Part shown: positions 12,861 through 46,957 of the stretch, piece by piece
How the letters are laid out: each line of letters begins with the position of its first letter
Position numbering within the stretch: the first letter of the stretch is position 1
Source of the DNA: Cohnella candidum
GTDB taxonomy: Bacteria > Bacillota > Bacilli > Paenibacillales > Paenibacillaceae
Reading direction: 5' to 3'
Assembly (NCBI RefSeq): GCF_003713065.1
Contig: NZ_CP033433.1
Coordinates: 4,675,501 to 4,739,500 of the forward strand
Length of the DNA stretch: 64,000 nt
Program-made: the position numbers and the translations under genes
The notes under the pieces: generated by a model
Seen by the model: only the letters and a program-made list of their open reading frames with translations
Told to the model about the DNA's origin: nothing
The model's database searches: none

Positions 12861-13829
12861 ATGATTACGCTGCCGGGCTACACGTTTCTCGGCGTGGTGT
12901 ACGAGGATGAACGGATCCGCGTCGTACACGCCTATTCGCAGCCGACGCTCCGGGTAGCCGCGATTAAAATGGTGAAGCCGGGACCGCGGATGGCGATGGA
13001 GAACGCGAAGCTTATCCACGAATACGAGCTTCTGAGCGGGCTGGAAATGAGCCGCGTGCTCAAGCCGCATGCGCTTGAATGGCAGGACGACACGGTATTG
13101 CTCGTCCACCACATCCTTCAAAGCGTGACGCTGCGGCATTACATAAGCAAGGAAGAGCGGACGCCGGAGCAGACGCTTGCCGCCGCGCGCGCGATTTGCG
13201 ACGTGGTAGCGGAGCTGCATGGACACGGCGTCATTCACCACAACATTCGTCCGGATACGATTCTGCTGCAGCCGGAAACCATGCAGGTCCATCTCACCGG
13301 ACTGCCGGAAGCGGTGCGACTTCGCTCGGACGGCACCGTAGCCGCGGCTCCTCCGCAGGCGCCGGAAGGCCATCCCTTCTATAACGCGCCGGAACTGACG
13401 GGGATGGTCGCCCGCGGTTCTTACGATCCGCGAACGGATCTGTATTCGCTCGGCGTGACGTTGTACGAGCTATTCGGCGGGCGGCTGCCCGCGGATGAAG
13501 CGGGTTTGGCTGCGCTGCCGGAAGGCGTGGCGGCGGTGCTCGGCAAGCTGCTCGCCGTCCGGCCGGAAGACCGGTATGCGTCCGCCGCGGAAGCGGATGC
13601 GCAGCTGAAGAGGTACACGGACGGCCTGGGGGCGGTGCCGCAGCTCACGACGCGCGAGCTGGAGGTGCTGGCTCTGATGGCGTCGGGCTCCTCTAACAAA
13701 GAGATTGCGGCACGGCTGCAGGTCACGACGGAGACGGTTAAAGCGCACACAAAAAACATTTTCGCCAAACTCGGGGTGGGCAGACGTATTCAGGCAGTCG
13801 AGGAAGCCCGAAGGCTTCATTTTCTATAA
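12861..13829 (+). CDS. Pseudokinase-LuxR helix-turn-helix fusion regulator
   Basis: 322-residue protein with an N-terminal protein-kinase-like domain (about 1-255) and a C-terminal LuxR/NarL HTH (262-322, LTTRELEVLALMASGSSNKEIA and VTTETVKAHTKNIFAKL). The kinase fold keeps Lys36 in VAAIKM, the NAPE motif and the DPRTDLYSLGVTLYEL helix. However, the catalytic HRD is HHN (Asn128), the DFG motif is absent (LTGLPE) and there is no glycine-rich loop, so phosphotransfer is unlikely and the domain may act as a ligand or protein sensor. ATG 12861 follows GGAGG at 12850-12854. It lies directly upstream of the two leader-peptide genes on the same strand and is the obvious candidate to control them. Confidence 0.8.
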   Translation: MITLPGYTFLGVVYEDERIRVVHAYSQPTLRVAAIKMVKPGPRMAMENAKLIHEYELLSGLEMSRVLKPHALEWQDDTVLLVHHILQSVTLRHYISKEERTPEQTLAAARAICDVVAELHGHGVIHHNIRPDTILLQPETMQVHLTGLPEAVRLRSDGTVAAAPPQAPEGHPFYNAPELTGMVARGSYDPRTDLYSLGVTLYELFGGRLPADEAGLAALPEGVAAVLGKLLAVRPEDRYASAAEADAQLKRYTDGLGAVPQLTTRELEVLALMASGSSNKEIAARLQVTTETVKAHTKNIFAKLGVGRRIQAVEEARRLHFL

Positions 13830-13843
13830 GATTCGTGACAAAA

Positions 13844-13914
13844 TCCCCCAAACGGGGAATGGCTTCGCGCTTAATCGCCATTGTACGATGGGGTTAACAG
13901 ACAAACCCCGGAGG
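13844..13914 (+). promoter_or_regulatory. Hairpin-bearing leader before the first peptide gene
   Basis: Two short hairpins lie in the 92-base spacer: TCCCC/GGGGA (13844-13858, loop CAAAC), possibly an end signal for the regulator, and GGGGTT/AACCCC (13890-13909) that abuts the GGAGG ribosome site at 13910-13914. The second could affect translation initiation. Only a weak -10-like TACGAT (13884-13889) was seen. Confidence 0.35.
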
Positions 13915-14150
13915 GATCGAGATGGCGGAAGAGAAGAAACCGGCCGAGCAAGAGCTCAAGGCGCAGCACGAGATCGAGCTGAACGATCTGGAACAGGAAC
14001 TGACGGCCGAGCAGCGAGGCGAAGTGGATGGCGGCATCAGCTTGCCTGGAATTTTCGGTCCGGAGAAGCCCAGGCAGAGAAGAAGGGGAGCTTAAACATT
14101 CCATTCAATGGAGGGATCGAGATGGCGGAAGAGAAGAAACCGGCCGAGCA
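13910..14150 (+). repeat. Tandem duplication of the precursor gene, 200-bp offset
   Basis: The 41 bases at 13910-13950 (ribosome site, start codon and first leader codons) are identical to 14110-14150, exactly 200 bases apart. Similarity continues at a lower level through both leaders and stops at the GG codons. Confidence 0.9.
13922..14095 (+). CDS. Double-glycine leader precursor peptide 1
   Basis: 57-residue peptide with an acidic helical leader (starts MAEEKKPAEQE, contains EIELNDLEQELT) ending in a Gly-Gly at residues 37-38 (GEVDGG). Cleavage there by a C39 peptidase would release a 19-residue core, ISLPGIFGPEKPRQRRRGA, with a hydrophobic N-terminus, three prolines and a basic tail. The core has no Cys or Thr and one Ser, so lanthionine or sactionine chemistry is unlikely. 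GGAGG at 13910-13914 is a good ribosome site. It is the first of two near-duplicate precursor genes placed before a prolyl isomerase and a C39-peptidase exporter. Precursor role inferred from the GG motif, the repeated leader and the context. Confidence 0.8.
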   Translation: MAEEKKPAEQELKAQHEIELNDLEQELTAEQRGEVDGGISLPGIFGPEKPRQRRRGA

Positions 14151-14277
14151 GGAGCCGAAAGCGCAGCAAGAAATCGAGCTGAACGACCTGGAGCAGGAGC
14201 TCACGAACCAGCAACAAGATAAAGTGGAAGGCGGCTGGGGCGGCGGTCGTAATCGACCGAGAGTCAGAGGCTCTTAA
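14122..14277 (+). CDS. Double-glycine leader precursor peptide 2
   Basis: 51-residue paralogue of the previous peptide. The leader is nearly identical (MAEEKKPAEQE, then EIELNDLEQELT) and again ends in Gly-Gly (KVEGG, residues 37-38). The predicted core differs completely: WGGGRNRPRVRGS, 13 residues, strongly basic, glycine- and arginine-rich with one proline. The same GGAGG ribosome site and surrounding bases are copied from gene 1. Conserved leader plus variable core is the mark of exported ribosomal peptides such as bacteriocins or pheromones. A terminator follows at 14304-14333, which would favour precursor over exporter transcripts. Confidence 0.8.
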   Translation: MAEEKKPAEQEPKAQQEIELNDLEQELTNQQQDKVEGGWGGGRNRPRVRGS

Positions 14278-14303
14278 TTCCATTATGAATAAAAAATAAG
14301 AGG

Positions 14304-14333
14304 AAGGATCCGTGTAAAGCGGGTCCTTTTTTT
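14304..14333 (+). terminator. Terminator or attenuator between precursor genes and isomerase
   Basis: Stem AAGGATCCG/CGGGTCCTT (one T-G pair) with loop TGTAAAG and seven T. No separate promoter for the downstream genes is evident in the 29 bases before the next start, so partial read-through is likely. Confidence 0.8.
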
Positions 14334-14362: not shown

Positions 14363-15121
14363 ATGGAAGCGATCGAGATGAACGGCAGAAGCGTGTCCCT
14401 TCGGGAGCTTCTGCTCTATGGGCGACTAAGCGGTACGATGCCTGCGGTTCGGCGGATCGCCGACGATGCCGCGATTGAATTGTGGGCGGAGCAGCTTAGT
14501 GTGCAAGCCGAAACGGACGATCTGCAGCGGGAATTGACGGCATTTCGGAAAGAGCACGGATTGTTCAAGGCCGCTTCCGCGCGTGCTTGGCTGGAGGAGC
14601 GGGGGGCCGAGTTGGACGACCTCGTCACGATGCTGCGTCCTAGAGTGCTGAGGCGATTGTTGAAGGGGCGCATTATCGAAATGGATGCCGTCGAGCGATA
14701 TTTTGCGGAAAACCGTATGGCCTATGACCTCGCGCAGCTGTCCACCCTCGTCGTCCGCGAATACGGGGAGGCGCAGGAGCTGCGGTTTCGTTTGGAGGAG
14801 GGCGCGGATTTCCATGCGCTTGCCCGGACGCACTCCACGGATGAGAACAGCCGTCCGGCCGGAGGTTATGTCGGTTGGAAAAGCCGGGAGGAGCTGAATC
14901 CGCTGACAGCGGCCGCCGTCTTCGGCGCGAAGAATGAAGAAGTGCTGGGGCCGTTCGAGACAGATCAAGGATTTTGGCTCGTCAAAGTCGAGTCCCTGCG
15001 TACGGCAGAGCTGGATGAGCAGACGACGGCGGACATCCGTGAACGGTTGTTCGAAGAAGCTTTCGAGAAGTTCAGGCGGTCATTGGACATCCGCGAAACG
15101 ATTTGGCGACTGGAAGGTTAG
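14363..15121 (+). CDS. Parvulin-type peptidyl-prolyl cis-trans isomerase
   Basis: 252-residue protein with a SurA/PrsA-like helical N-terminal part (about 10-115) and a parvulin domain (about 121-212: AQLSTLVV, ADFHALARTHSTDENSRPAGGYVGW, VLGPFETDQGFWLVKVE). It has no signal peptide or lipobox, unlike PrsA, so it should work in the cytosol before export. Placed between the precursor genes and the exporter; both predicted cores contain proline, making them plausible substrates. Parvulins of this layout are known next to cyclic-nucleotide-domain C39 exporters in cyanobacterial bacteriocin-like loci; the parallel here is inference. AGGAGG at 14348-14353 is the ribosome site. Confidence 0.85.
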   Translation: MEAIEMNGRSVSLRELLLYGRLSGTMPAVRRIADDAAIELWAEQLSVQAETDDLQRELTAFRKEHGLFKAASARAWLEERGAELDDLVTMLRPRVLRRLLKGRIIEMDAVERYFAENRMAYDLAQLSTLVVREYGEAQELRFRLEEGADFHALARTHSTDENSRPAGGYVGWKSREELNPLTAAAVFGAKNEEVLGPFETDQGFWLVKVESLRTAELDEQTTADIRERLFEEAFEKFRRSLDIRETIWRLEG

Positions 15122-15148: not shown

Positions 15149-18100
15149 ATGAATCAACGAATCACCGCATTTTTGCGGGAGATCAGGCTGTTCGACGTGT
15201 TTACCGATGCAGAGCGGCAGCTGCTGGCCGAACGGATGAGCATGGAAACGTACCAAATGGGACGCACGGTGGCCGGTATCGGGGCGGAGCAAGCGGCCTT
15301 CTATCTCGTCGTGAACGGACAAGCCCGGAAAATCGGGATCACCGCGGACGGTAAGGAGACGAACCAGGGATTGATTGTTTCCGGCGGCCACTTCGGCGAG
15401 CAGTCGCTGCTGGGAACGGAGGCGCAGCCGGTTGTCGTGCGGGCGTCGACGGAATTGACCGTGCTGCGGATGGGACGTGAGCCGTTCCGCGAGATGATCG
15501 GGCAGCACCCGGAAATGGAAAAGTATTTTCGCGAGTATGTCTCTTCCGACATTTTGCGTACGTTCCTCAAGAACAACACGGTGCTCACGCATGTCGATCA
15601 CGGGGCGTTGCGTTCGCTGCTGGACCGGCTGGAAATGTGCGTCTATGAGCCTGGCGGGTATTTGGTCCGTGAGGGAGAGGACGGAGACGCGTTTTATATA
15701 TTGAAGGAAGGCACCGCGCTCGTGGAAAAAGGCGAAGAAGGGAACGTCGTCAACCGGCTGTACCCCGGCGACTTCTTCGGCGAACTGGCGCTGCTGACGG
15801 GCGAACCGAGGCAGGCCAGCGTCCGCGCTTCCGGTGCCCGAGTCGAGGCGTTCCGGCTGGCCAAATCGGACTTCGACGAACTCATTCGCCGTTACCCGGT
15901 TATTCTGGAGTCGATCCGCCGCATTTCCGCTCATTATGCACCCGCCCCTGTGAAGGAGGCTGTGGAGGAAACGGCGGCAACGGCGGCGGTGACCGCGGAT
16001 GCGGAAATCGAACTGCCCGAAGGCGGACCGACGCCGGCACGGAGGCGGCGCTTTCGGCTGCCCTCGCTGCGGTTCCGCCGGTATCCGGCGCTGTTGCAGC
16101 AAAACGAGATGGACTGCGGTCCGACGTGCCTCACGATGCTCGCGCGTTATTATGGCATGAACGCCAGCGTAAACCGCATGAGGGAGCGGTGCAACGTCGG
16201 CACGGAGGGCGCCTCGATGCTGGCGCTGACCGAGACGGCGGAATCGCTCGGTTTCGAGACGCGGGGGTTGAAGACGTCGATGCCCCTGCTGCGAGAGCTG
16301 CACACCCCGTTCATCGCGCATTGGAACGGCAACCACTATGTGATGGTCTACGAATTCGACGAGCGGCGCGGCGCGGTTGTCGTCGATCCCGCGATCGGCA
16401 GCGCGGAAACCGTATCGCCGGAGGCATTCGCGAAGCACTGGAGCGGTTACGCGATTGAGTTGAAACCGACCGAACGGCTCGGAGGGCTGGATGACCGGGA
16501 GCCTCTGTGGTCCAGGTACTTGGCGTTTTTCCGGCCCTATGCCGGGCTCGCTGTCTGGACGGTGGGGCTGTCCGTTCTGATCGAGCTGGTCTACCTAGTC
16601 TTCCCGGTCATGACGCAGCAGGTTTTCGACCGCGTGCTGGACAGCCGCGACATGCCGTTGCTGAGCTTGCTTCTGCTGGCGATGTTGGGACTGGCAGTGT
16701 TCAGCACGGCCGGCATCGCCGTTCGGCAGGTGCTGGTCGGCCGACTGGCCAACCGCATCGACGCCGCCATGCTGGACGGGTTCTACCGGCATCTCATGCG
16801 CTTGCCGTTCTCCTATTTCGCGAGACGGACGACCGGCGACATCATTACGAGAGTTTACGAAAACGAGAAGATCCGCCGGCTGCTCACCGACCATGGCGTT
16901 CATCTCCTGTTGGACGGCTTGACGATGGCCGTGTACGGGGGGCTTATGATTTATTATCACGCCGGATTGGCGTTGATTCCGCTGGTCGTTATCCCGGTGT
17001 ATGCCGTCCTGTACGGATTCGCGCTTCCGAGAATGCGCCGTAATTTCCGCAAACAGTTGCAGGCGGAAGGCGACTCGCAATCGGCGATCGTCGAGATGGT
17101 CGGCGCCATCGCGTCGGTGAAGGGGATGGCGGTAGAAGAGACCGTGCGGGCGAAGCTGATGCGTTTGCTGCAGCGGCAGCTGCAGCTTCGGCTGGAAGGG
17201 AACCGGCTCGAGGTGATCGTGCAAGCGGGTAGCGCCGGCATCCGCCAGGCCGCCAACATCGCGCTGCTCTACTTCGGCGCCATGCAGGTGATGGACGGAC
17301 GCTTAAGCGTCGGCACGCTTGTGGCGTTTACCGTGCTGTTCACGTCGTTCATGTACGCGGTCGAGACAATCTCGGCCATGGCGGGCGAGCTGTCCGAAGC
17401 GAGAACCTCCATGGAACGGCTGAACGACGTTTATGAAGCGGCCGTGGAGCACCCGGAGTCGGATCGCTTCCGCGTGTTGTCCGGTTTGCGCGGACATATC
17501 CGGTTTGAAAACGTGTCGTTCCGATACTACAACGGCGGGAAAATGATCCTGCAAAACCTGAACCTCGAAATCGAGCCGGGACAGACGATCGCGCTGGTCG
17601 GCCGCAGCGGGTCGGGTAAGTCAACGCTCGCCAACCTGCTGTTGAAGCTGCTTGAGCCGACGAGCGGCACGATCTACGTGGACGGCTATCCGCTGAGTGG
17701 AGTCCACGCGGACTCCATCCGCCAGCAGGTCGGTACGGTGCCCCAGGAGACTGTACTTTTCCGCGGCACCGTGCGGGAGAACATTGCGCTGAACGGGGAA
17801 GAGGCTTCGTTCGCCGAACTGGAGCGGGCAGCGAAGCTTGCCGGCGCGGACTCTTTCATCGAGTCTTTGCCGCTCGGCTACGACACGATGATCGGCGAAG
17901 GCGGCGTCCGGTTGTCCGGCGGGCAGCGCCAGCGTATCGCGATCGCCCGTGCGCTGATCCGCGATCCGCGCATCCTCGTTTTTGACGAGGCGACCAGTGC
18001 GCTCGATACGGAATTGGAGAGGATCGTGCAAGACAATATGGAGACGATGATGAGGAACCGCACGACGATTATCATCGCCCATCGGCTCAGCACGATCCGC

Positions 18101-18217
18101 AGCGCGGATCGGATCGTCGTGCTCGACCGGGGAGCGATCGCCGAGTCGGGCACGCATGAGGAGCTGCTGGGGCGCAAAGGGCTGTATCATTACCTGGTGC
18201 AACAGCAGGGGGTGTAG
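15149..18217 (+). CDS. Peptidase-containing ABC exporter with two cyclic-nucleotide-binding domains
   Basis: 1022-residue exporter that should cleave the GG leaders and pump the cores out. Domain order: cNMP-binding domain 1 (about 10-135; HFGEQSLLG lacks the phosphate-binding Arg), domain 2 (about 145-265; GDFFGELALLTGEPRQASV keeps the full phosphate cassette), linker, C39 peptidase (about 315-445; Cys323 in QNEMDCGPTCL, His396 in NGNHYVMVY, Asp413 in VDPAIG), six-helix membrane domain (about 460-740), and ATPase domain (about 785-1022; Lys824 in GRSGSGKST, LSGGQ, ILVFDEATSALD). All catalytic residues are present. The usual lactococcin-type exporters lack the cNMP domains, so transport may be gated by a nucleotide. 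GGGGGA lies 8 bases before ATG 15149. No HlyD-type partner is present. Confidence 0.92.
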   Translation: MNQRITAFLREIRLFDVFTDAERQLLAERMSMETYQMGRTVAGIGAEQAAFYLVVNGQARKIGITADGKETNQGLIVSGGHFGEQSLLGTEAQPVVVRASTELTVLRMGREPFREMIGQHPEMEKYFREYVSSDILRTFLKNNTVLTHVDHGALRSLLDRLEMCVYEPGGYLVREGEDGDAFYILKEGTALVEKGEEGNVVNRLYPGDFFGELALLTGEPRQASVRASGARVEAFRLAKSDFDELIRRYPVILESIRRISAHYAPAPVKEAVEETAATAAVTADAEIELPEGGPTPARRRRFRLPSLRFRRYPALLQQNEMDCGPTCLTMLARYYGMNASVNRMRERCNVGTEGASMLALTETAESLGFETRGLKTSMPLLRELHTPFIAHWNGNHYVMVYEFDERRGAVVVDPAIGSAETVSPEAFAKHWSGYAIELKPTERLGGLDDREPLWSRYLAFFRPYAGLAVWTVGLSVLIELVYLVFPVMTQQVFDRVLDSRDMPLLSLLLLAMLGLAVFSTAGIAVRQVLVGRLANRIDAAMLDGFYRHLMRLPFSYFARRTTGDIITRVYENEKIRRLLTDHGVHLLLDGLTMAVYGGLMIYYHAGLALIPLVVIPVYAVLYGFALPRMRRNFRKQLQAEGDSQSAIVEMVGAIASVKGMAVEETVRAKLMRLLQRQLQLRLEGNRLEVIVQAGSAGIRQAANIALLYFGAMQVMDGRLSVGTLVAFTVLFTSFMYAVETISAMAGELSEARTSMERLNDVYEAAVEHPESDRFRVLSGLRGHIRFENVSFRYYNGGKMILQNLNLEIEPGQTIALVGRSGSGKSTLANLLLKLLEPTSGTIYVDGYPLSGVHADSIRQQVGTVPQETVLFRGTVRENIALNGEEASFAELERAAKLAGADSFIESLPLGYDTMIGEGGVRLSGGQRQRIAIARALIRDPRILVFDEATSALDTELERIVQDNMETMMRNRTTIIIAHRLSTIRSADRIVVLDRGAIAESGTHEELLGRKGLYHYLVQQQGV

Positions 18218-18328: not shown

Positions 18329-18357
18329 GCGTCTTGGCGTCATGGAGGAGATGCAAG

Positions 18358-19212
18358 ATGAAAACGGCCCGTTTGTACGATCAACCCGAACAATTTGCGG
18401 AAATGATGATGCATCAACTGAGAGAAAGCATGGGCGTGCAGGTCGAGAGCAAGGAGGACGAACCGCTGCTTCTGGACGTCATCTTAAAGCAAGACGCGCC
18501 GGAAGAGAAAATTCGGGTCAGCCTTCATGAAACGTTCCGAACCTACCTGGCCGGCGGGGATTTGAACGTGGCTGTCGATTACTTGAATGATATCGTAAGG
18601 AACTCGCAATTTATCCTGACCCAGCAAGACAAAATGCTGAAGCTCGACATGACTTATCTGTATCCGGCGATTCGTGATGCCAGATATGTCCTTGAAGCAG
18701 GGCGGGATTGTCCGATGGTCTCGGAAGAGTGCGGCTTGCCCGGACTTCGCGTGATTTTTCTGGAGATTAAAGACGGCGTTAGCAAAATCATCAACGAAGG
18801 TTCCTTGGAGGCAAATCCCCGGTTAACCGAAGAGAGAGTGAAGCGAATCGCATTCCGCAATTTGCGGTCGGCGGGTTGGGAACATCCCCGGCTAGAGCTG
18901 CAAAGTCCATTTCGCCCGTCTTGTACGGTCGAAGTGTACACGGACTACTCTCATCCGATTGATTATCAGTTTATCCACCCGGAGATGGCTGCTTCCAATA
19001 CGCCGCGCAACTTCGTGCTCGCATTCACGAACCGGAAGTACGCCTTGCTGCTGCGCTCCACCGAAAACATGGATACGAAGCAGAAGGCGAAGAGGTTGGT
19101 CGAAAAGTCCAAATTCGCGGAAGTCGTAAAACGAAGTTTTCATCTGTTGCCCCACCCGGTGTCCCAACTGATGTACTGGTTTCACGATGGGAAAGCGGAG
19201 TTGTTGGATTAA
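18358..19212 (+). CDS. DUF1444-like (YtpQ-type) protein
   Basis: 284-residue cytosolic protein without membrane segments or known catalytic motifs. YPAIRDARYV, GLRVIFLEIKDGVSKIINEGSL and the C-terminal NTPRNFVLAFTNRKYALLLRSTENM recall the uncharacterised DUF1444/YtpQ family of Bacillales; the assignment is by eye and moderate. ATG 18358 has GGAGGAG 7 bases upstream. It sits behind the exporter terminator, so probably has its own promoter and may be unrelated to peptide export. No function is known for the family. Confidence 0.55.
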   Translation: MKTARLYDQPEQFAEMMMHQLRESMGVQVESKEDEPLLLDVILKQDAPEEKIRVSLHETFRTYLAGGDLNVAVDYLNDIVRNSQFILTQQDKMLKLDMTYLYPAIRDARYVLEAGRDCPMVSEECGLPGLRVIFLEIKDGVSKIINEGSLEANPRLTEERVKRIAFRNLRSAGWEHPRLELQSPFRPSCTVEVYTDYSHPIDYQFIHPEMAASNTPRNFVLAFTNRKYALLLRSTENMDTKQKAKRLVEKSKFAEVVKRSFHLLPHPVSQLMYWFHDGKAELLD

Positions 19213-21012: not shown

Positions 21013-22365
21013 ATGCAGCCGAACACCATTCGAATCATCCAGACGGCTAAGGATACGGGAGACCGCTTGGCGGAACTGTCGCCGCTGTCGTTCGTTCCGG
21101 ACGCGAACGGCCAGGAAAACCAATTGATCAATATTTATGACGATGTGGAATATCAGACCATCGAAGGCTTCGGCGGCGCGATCACGGAAGCTTCGGCGGT
21201 TACGCTGGCCAAGCTGAGCGCCGATAAGCAAGCGGAGGTCATGAAAGCCTACTTCGACCCCGTTGACGGCCTGGGCTATACGATCGTGAGATCGCATATC
21301 CAAAGCTGCGACTTCTCGCTCGGGAACTACGCTTACGTGCAGAATAACGACGAGAGCCTCGAAACATTTAATATTGACCATGACATGAAAGAACTCATTC
21401 CAACGATTCGGAAGGCGGCTGCCCACATCGGCGAAGACTTCCGGTTGTTCTCTTCTCCTTGGAGCCCGCCGCCATGGATGAAAACGAACGGAACGATGAA
21501 CGGCGGAGGCTCGTTAAAACCGGAGTATCGCGCGGCATGGGCGGAAATGTACGTGAAGTACATCCAAGCTTATGAAGCGGCAGGGCTTCCGGTCTGGGCG
21601 CTCAGCGTTCAGAACGAAGCGAAAGCGGTTCAGATTTGGGATTCGTGCATCTACACCGCGGAGGAAGAGAAGGATTTCGTTCGGGATTACCTCGGACCCG
21701 CGCTGGAGAAGGCGGGCATGTCCCACGTGAAAGTGATGATTTGGGACCACAACCGCGAACGCGTATATGAGCGGGCGAAGACGGCTTTCACGGACGAGGC
21801 GGCTTCCAAATACATTTGGGGGATTTGCTTCCACTGGTACTCCGGCGACCATTTTGAATCGCTGGCAGCCGTGCACGACAAGTTCCCGGACAAAAAGCTG
21901 TTTTTCAGCGAAGGCTGCCAAGAGGGCGGCGTCCATCTCGGTTCCTGGGCGACGGGCGAGCGGTACGGCCATGATCTCATGGGCAACCTGAACAATTGGA
22001 CAGCGGCTTGGACGGACTGGAACGTCGTGCTCGATGAGCAAGGCGGGCCGAACCATGTCGGGAACTTCTGCGACGCGCCGATCATCGCCGACACGACGAA
22101 GAACGAGGTCGTGTACGAAAGCTCGTACTACTATATTGGCCATTTCAGCAAATATATCCGCCCAGGCGCCAAGCGCATCGCGGCTTCCCGGTATACGGAG
22201 AAGCTGGAGACGACCGCGTTCAAGAACGGCGACGGCACGATCGCGACGGTCGTGTTGAACCGGACGGACAGTGAAATTCCTTACATCGTGCGCTATCGCG
22301 ATCAACTCGCGCACGTTACGATTCCGGCGCATGCCATTCAGACGCTGCTGTTCGCGCAAGGGTAA
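21013..22365 (+). CDS. GH30 family glycoside hydrolase (glucosylceramidase-like)
   Basis: 450-residue GH30 enzyme: a TIM barrel with EGFGGAITEASAVTL near residue 50 and a C-terminal beta-sandwich (about 375-450). The acid/base is Glu202 in SVQNEAKA and the nucleophile Glu300 in LFFSEGCQEGG. SPWSPPPWMKTNGTMNGGGSL is typical of glucosylceramidase/beta-1,6-glucanase-type members. There is no signal peptide, so it should act on imported oligosaccharides in the cytosol. Start ATG 21013 follows AGGGAGG by 7 bases. Its TAA stop lies inside the first unit of a 51-bp tandem array. Regulated probably by the divergent AraC protein. Exact substrate unknown. Confidence 0.88.
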   Translation: MQPNTIRIIQTAKDTGDRLAELSPLSFVPDANGQENQLINIYDDVEYQTIEGFGGAITEASAVTLAKLSADKQAEVMKAYFDPVDGLGYTIVRSHIQSCDFSLGNYAYVQNNDESLETFNIDHDMKELIPTIRKAAAHIGEDFRLFSSPWSPPPWMKTNGTMNGGGSLKPEYRAAWAEMYVKYIQAYEAAGLPVWALSVQNEAKAVQIWDSCIYTAEEEKDFVRDYLGPALEKAGMSHVKVMIWDHNRERVYERAKTAFTDEAASKYIWGICFHWYSGDHFESLAAVHDKFPDKKLFFSEGCQEGGVHLGSWATGERYGHDLMGNLNNWTAAWTDWNVVLDEQGGPNHVGNFCDAPIIADTTKNEVVYESSYYYIGHFSKYIRPGAKRIAASRYTEKLETTAFKNGDGTIATVVLNRTDSEIPYIVRYRDQLAHVTIPAHAIQTLLFAQG

Positions 22366-22611
22366 AAAGTAACGTTGCAGTTTGGCAGTGGCGTCCAAGA
22401 ACGGCTGCAGAGGTAAAAAGTAACGTTGCAGTGCGGCAGTGGCGTCCAAGAGCCGCTGTAGCGGTAAAAAGTAACGTTGCAGTTTGGCAGTGGCGTCCAA
22501 GAGCGGTTGCAGCGGTAAAAAGTAACGTTGCAATGTGGCAGTGGCGTCCAACAGCAGCTGTAGCGTTAAAAAGTAACGTTACAGTGCGGCAATGGCGTCC
22601 AAGAAAGCAGG
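22361..22611. repeat. Tandem array A: five 51-bp units
   Basis: Units start at 22361, 22412, 22463, 22514 and 22565, an exact 51-base period. Each opens GGTAAAAAGTAACGTTGCAG and contains GGCAGTGGCGTCCAA. Copies differ by a few substitutions and no gaps, and the last is shortened. The array begins at the GH30 stop codon and ends just before a terminator, so it would be transcribed as a 3' region. Because 51 is a multiple of three, long artefactual frames run through it on both strands. Confidence 0.95.
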
Positions 22612-46169: not shown

Positions 46170-46401
46170 CAAAAACGTCGCGAAATGCGACGATAACGGG
46201 CTGTAACCGGCCGGACCGATCAAAATCGTCACAAAAAACGACGATAACGAGCCGTAATCGGACGGACCTATCAAAATCGTCACAAAAAGCGACGAAAACG
46301 AGCCGTAACCGGCCGGACCTATCAAAATCGTCGCAAAAAGTGACGATAATGGGCCTCAGCCGGCTAGAACAAGCAAAATCGTCGCAAAATGTGACGATAA
46401 T
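46170..46401. repeat. Tandem array B: five 51-bp units with internal hairpin
   Basis: Units start at 46170, 46221, 46272, 46323 and 46374 (exact 51-base period; the last is partial). Each carries TCGTCRC-AAAA-GYGACGA, able to form a short hairpin, followed by GCCGTAACCGGCCGGAC in the better copies. Upstream, 45869-46169 holds the promoter of the minus-strand gene and a degraded unit; nothing else is seen there. Confidence 0.92.
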
Positions 46402-46423: not shown

Positions 46424-46951
46424 CGGTTTCACCGTCTTACGAAGCGGTCTGACGAGTTTAAAGTTACCAAAGACGGTTTAACCGTCTTGCGTAGTTGGTT
46501 CGGCGAGTTTGAAGTTACCGAAGACGGTTTCACCGTCTTGCGGAGCGGATTTGGCGAGTTTGAAGTTACAGAAGACGGTCTCACCGTCTTGGGGGGCAGG
46601 TTCGACGAGTTTGAAGTTACCGAAGACGGTTTAACCGTCTTGCATAGTAGGTTAGGCGAGTTTGAAGTTACCGAAGACGGTTTCATAGTCTTGCGGAGCA
46701 GATTCAGCAAGTTTGAAGTTACCGAAGACGGTCACACCGTCTTGCGGGGCGGATTAGGCGAGTTTGAAGTTACAGAAGACGGTCTCGCCGTCTTGGGGGG
46801 CAGGTTCGGCGAGTTTGAAGTTACCGAAGACGGTCACACCGTCTTGCGGAGCGGATTAGGCGAGTTTGAAGTTACCGAAGGCGGTTTCATAGTCTTGCGG
46901 AGCAGATTCAGCAAGTTTGAAGTTACCGAAGACGGTCTCACGGTCTTGCGG
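46424..46951. repeat. Tandem array C: about 10.5 units of 51 bp
   Basis: AAGTTACC-type unit starts fall at 46461 and every 51 bases to 46920, ten copies plus a partial copy before. Most units contain AAGACGGT-NNN-ACCGTCTT, an 8-bp hairpin, followed by a variable GC-rich stretch and GGCGAGTTTG. Units 5 and 9 share a variant that breaks the hairpin (CATAGTCTT). Units 3-6 resemble 7-10, so a 4-unit (204-bp) block was duplicated. It follows directly on array B. Confidence 0.95.
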
Positions 46952-46957
46952 AAAACG

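Follow-up and report, generated by a model that had tools for sequence, protein, structure and literature searches.

Precursor genes A and B, which stand in tandem in the window (the whole 64 kb stretch of DNA that was analysed), encode putative double-glycine peptides of a Paenibacillales family. Their leaders have probably been homogenised within the genome, or their cores swapped, between core types that are themselves old. The similarity of the two genes ends at the two Gly codons, and leader and core appear from the alignments to have partly separate histories.

Twin precursor genes and the adjacent export genes

The locus comprises the following features:

12861..13829, + strand, Ser/Thr protein kinase fused to a LuxR-type HTH, a likely regulator (Pfam Pkinase, GerE)
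13910..13950, + strand, first copy of the exact 41-nt repeat, with RBS GGAGGG, start and 9 codons
13922..14095, + strand, precursor A, 57 aa, with a 38-aa leader to GG (13922-14035) and core ISLPGIFGPEKPRQRRRGA
14110..14150, + strand, second copy of the exact 41-nt repeat, identical to 13910-13950
14122..14277, + strand, precursor B, 51 aa, with a 38-aa leader to GG (14122-14235) and core WGGGRNRPRVRGS
14299..14333, + strand, terminator-like hairpin with a U-run, separating the precursors from the export genes (RNA fold -19.5 kcal/mol, z -5.4)
14363..15121, + strand, SurA/PrsA-like parvulin-type prolyl isomerase (Pfam Rotamase, E 4.7e-15; AlphaFold pLDDT 90.7; Foldseek to SurA/PrsA)
15149..18217, + strand, exporter of 1022 aa with two cNMP-binding stretches, a C39 peptidase, an ABC membrane domain and an ATPase (Pfam)
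18352..19212, + strand, 286-aa protein 3' of the exporter, with no Pfam or NCBIfam hit above cutoff

When the sequence is compared with itself at an offset of exactly 200 bases, 41/41 nt are identical between 13910-13950 and 14110-14150, which upholds the preliminary description of an exact repeat spanning the ribosome site and first codons. In 64 kb of sequence, chance alone would not be expected to yield an exact repeat of 41 bases, and the remaining 30-mer repeats of the window all lie inside 51-bp tandem arrays. There are three such arrays (22361-22604, 46170-46400 and 46424-46952), which have different units and about 5 to 10 copies. No match to the exact 41-mer was found in viral contigs. 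Upstream of the repeat, A and B agree at 18/88 nt, which is the chance level; the RBS segment is identical (12/12 nt), the leader DNA agrees at 95/114 nt over 38 codons, and the first 42 nt past GG are again at chance level (10/42). Both genes match the precursor profile (A, E 4.4e-13; B, E 3.2e-16), which includes the two sequences themselves, and a profile search of their own genome found no precursor copies beyond A and B. A scan of genome contigs for sister strains returned only Paenibacillus cymbidii, with a prolyl isomerase identity of 41%; none of the genus members carries a close copy of the locus, and no close relative of the species was found.

Neither peptide matches any Pfam or NCBIfam family, including the NHLP, Nif11 and CTB models, and the CTB model matches only 3/31 family members, weakly. 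Nevertheless, the SurA/PrsA-like isomerase and the C39 exporter with cNMP domains lie directly 3' of A and B, which are therefore almost certainly double-glycine export peptides. The exporter has a strong Peptidase_C39 match (E 2.4e-36), placing a C39-ABC exporter close to the precursors. The prolyl isomerase has no evident signal peptide by eye, and its match to TIGR04500 (74.1 bits) is below the curated cutoff of 180. Homologues of the kinase are also found near related exporters (L064 and L106). The hairpin at 14299..14333 is not listed by a consensus terminator scan. Scanning of the adjacent genes against Pfam and NCBIfam recognised no modification enzyme, HlyD or immunity gene. The 286-aa protein gave no tblastn match in the related loci examined, and its membership of the system is doubtful.

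The same arrangement was found in related genomes by tblastn and a leader profile. In one related family (f6), 17/105 genomes carry the exporter and exactly these 17 also carry the precursor, while the 88 genomes that lack the exporter also lack the precursor. The positives are not independent, since the profile was partly trained on those 17 genomes; the 88 negatives are. No simple probability is claimed for the co-occurrence, because the genomes are related by descent. This co-occurrence and the adjacent C39-ABC exporter bear out the claim that double-glycine precursor genes stand here with a cognate exporter. The co-occurrence already contradicts the very improbable reading of A and B as chance open reading frames or a non-coding repeat, which could appeal to the missing family matches but is opposed by purifying selection on the reading frame and by homologues in many genomes. 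Two genomes (G236 and G226) carry exporter genes broken over several frames (L071 and L072) and have no precursor by profile, an apparent joint decay of both components.

Precursors are not confined to the neighbourhood of the exporter. In four genomes (G446, G418, G313 and G317) the profile search found no precursor beside the exporter, but 3 to 5 elsewhere in each, and a fifth (G503) also has extra precursors away from its exporter. These dispersed genes (L142-L160) stand among unrelated neighbours; those of the 10 dispersed precursors inspected are mostly unrelated and include DNA polymerase III, an S-layer protein and a histidine kinase, among others, which offered no hint of function. As a separate observation, related precursors at six loci (L034 6442-6579, L039, L040, L115, L116 and L158) have a predicted mature peptide after GG of only 3 residues, RFI (relatives have RFF, KRAL and KRYSY), and this is kept across families of the order.

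Conservation of leader and core

The leader proteins of A and B are identical at 30/38 residues (79%). Nei-Gojobori counts for the pair give dS 0.67 and dN 0.11 (dN/dS about 0.16), which shows that purifying selection acts on the leader protein and that neither gene is a very recent copy of the other. Leaders that had been described as nearly identical are so mainly in the first 41 nt: the 19 nucleotide differences between the pair are all confined to the remaining 85 nt (hypergeometric p = 2.7e-4). The clean 41 nt could be either a short conversion tract or the result of translation-initiation constraint, the synonymous sites alone being too small a sample. Codons 10-28 carry 8 synonymous and 2 nonsynonymous changes. 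In codons 29-38, directly 5' of GG, there are 2 synonymous changes and 7 of the 9 nonsynonymous ones. Selection on the leader, as previously proposed, is thus supported by the dN/dS ratio and by the co-occurrence of precursor and exporter, yet in this pair conservation is lowest in the segment adjoining GG.

Recognition by the C39 peptidase LahT follows a rule of hydrophobic residues at -4, -7 and -12 together with GG (PMC6363468). The leaders of A and B both end in GG, with V at -4 and L at -12, and among 51 family precursors the GG end is found in 51/51, V at -4 in 48/51, and L, V or M at -12; in GG, -4 and -12 the family leaders therefore resemble LahT substrates (PMC6363468). Position -7 is R in A and Q in B, so neither leader has the hydrophobic residue, whereas the 51 precursors mostly have M, L or A. 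These polar residues depart from the LahT rule, where a Lys or Asp in this place greatly reduced cleavage (PMC6363468), although a hydrophobic -7 is not universal among peptides exported by C39 systems.

The cores of A and B are short (13-19 aa), contain Arg and Pro, and both end in R-G-(A/S). The statement that nothing is shared past GG holds at the nucleotide level, where gapped alignment is not significant (shuffle p about 0.13-0.20), but not entirely in protein, where there is weak similarity (p = 0.036). Core groups were compared by alignment-score shuffles. Core B matches that of a dispersed precursor elsewhere in the order (G503 L160; WGGGRNRPRVRGS / WGGARNYLRPKVRGA, 67%, z 7.2, 0/50,000 shuffles), and the leaders of these two genes are only about half identical. 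The nearest relative of the B leader is thus the A leader, and that of the B core is G503 L160. Core A fits a group with RRG ends (z 4.3, p 2e-4) but does not fit the B-type WGG group, while core B shows the reverse; the link of core A to the RRG group depends on a sequence that is short and rich in Arg, and on a group that was chosen post hoc.

In related loci, core types follow the exporter. In the exporter tree, each of three core types, DL (10 loci), long Pro-rich (8) and short (10), is confined to one side of a branch with full support, which indicates that core type and exporter travel together across two families of the order. Cores are in many cases conserved to the same degree as leaders: in the DL type the mean identity is 0.61 for each, and several cores from different genera are distinguished by only one or two residues. 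An independent case resembling A and B is provided by the two precursors of G215, which agree at 70/76 nt upstream and 109/117 nt in the leader, and then at 18/66 nt past GG. Each of their cores pairs with a different one of the two G349/G351 cores (p 0.0003 and 0.0013 against G349), and the crossed pairs are weaker (p 0.038 and 0.17). The break at the GG codons is as in A/B, and the cores appear by alignment to be of two older types. In a survey of 42 precursors, the nearest neighbours of leader and core differ in 34/42, a suggestive count that is inflated by short sequences and ties.

The suggestion of core diversification was accordingly half right, but not as first worded: leader and core do seem to have partly separate histories, while cores A and B resemble types of other genera, and near-identical cores recur in related loci. 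Old core types, together with homogenisation or swapping of leaders, account for the evidence better than the invention of new cores does.

Origin of the pair and a possible mechanism

The likeness of the A and B leaders reflects common origin and purifying selection and, most likely, also homogenisation (gene conversion of RBS and leader) or a core swap. Gene conversion of the leader and a swap of the core predict one identical pattern. Cores A and B would then belong to two older core types.

An alternative is the plain tandem duplication of one B-type precursor, after which core A was relaxed or diversifying and the leader was held by exporter selection, with no recombination. The 3' flanks of A and B share TTCCAT..AAT (p = 0.012), a weak hint in the sequence that the whole unit may once have been duplicated, and this flank, together with the weak similarity of the two cores in protein, leans slightly towards B-type duplication followed by divergence of core A; a leader dS of 0.67 would also have allowed time enough. 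This account nevertheless appears unlikely, as core A looks like another type that occurs across genera, no difference falls within the first 41 nt, and G215 repeats the break with cores that belong to two older types.

Slightly less credit is given to a recent event in which a core from another precursor gene replaced, like a cassette, that of A or B. Cassette-like exchange of cores, as such, is possible, since the B leader and core have different nearest relatives and G215 is likewise discordant. The break at the GG codons would fit a replacement, and the dispersed precursors of several related genomes are possible donors. A recent event is opposed by the leader dS, and free exchange by the way in which core type follows exporter phylogeny; moreover, no donor is left in the genome itself, because it holds only the two precursors.

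Under the favoured reading of homogenised leaders or swapped cores, the C39 domain of the neighbouring exporter would recognise the acidic 38-aa leader. By analogy with LahT, the leader helix, with V-4 and L-12, may dock in the peptidase groove and be cut after GG during export of the core (PMC6363468). The exported product would be an Arg/Pro-containing peptide of 13-19 aa. The SurA/PrsA-like isomerase is probably a cytosolic chaperone or partner that holds the precursor, and the cNMP domains suggest that export may be regulated. Any signalling or antagonistic function of the cores would be putative, as would their biological role. More tentatively, the locus may exemplify a modular mode of export in Paenibacillales, in which one exporter and one chaperone serve leaders and cores that behave as separate modules, with homogenised leaders and few old core types across genera, some of them on dispersed genes.

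Comparison with known systems

Cyanobacterial bacteriocin clusters of groups I, II and VI resemble the window in having a long C39-type ABC exporter, a SurA-type rotamase and GG precursors nearby (PMC3140520), and two annotated cyanobacterial plasmids carry an exporter with HlyD and a prolyl isomerase. However, the cyanobacterial clusters include HlyD and sometimes modifying enzymes, neither of which was seen among the flanking genes scanned in the window. Group 21 graspetide clusters also combine a PpiC-related protein, a C39 exporter and a short precursor, and require a TIGR04500 protein, MirC, as partner (PMC13097080). They differ from the window in that the prolyl isomerase here falls below the TIGR04500 cutoff (74 vs 180) and no graspetide synthetase is present among the flanking genes examined. 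In addition, the C-domain of MirC is reported to be unlike a prolyl isomerase domain (PMC13097080), whereas that of the window protein resembles one.

A conserved GG leader, variable cores and precursors located away from the export genes are shared by the window family with NHLP/Nif11 precursors and prochlorosins, for which intragenic recombination has been proposed and leader conservation has been ascribed to the transporter (PMC2887384, PMC10783134). The NHLP/Nif11 leaders are, however, long sequences akin to nitrile hydratase or Nif11, and those models do not match the window precursors; nor was a lanthionine or heterocycle enzyme seen nearby. HetC of Nostoc PCC 7120, like the window exporter, unites a cyclic-nucleotide-binding domain, a C39 peptidase and ABC in one protein, and its cyclic-nucleotide-binding domain binds ppGpp in vitro (PMC10986499). 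The window exporter differs in its two cNMP stretches, and in being accompanied by a prolyl isomerase gene and two precursors, whereas HetC has no known precursor nearby. For a group of Bacillota C39 exporters with cyclic-nucleotide-binding domains, the window offers a precursor family that is matched by no library model, while the similarly built HetC has no known substrate. The A/B pair makes recombination between leader and core at the GG codons testable and, if it is true, core repertoires could be mined by the leader alone.
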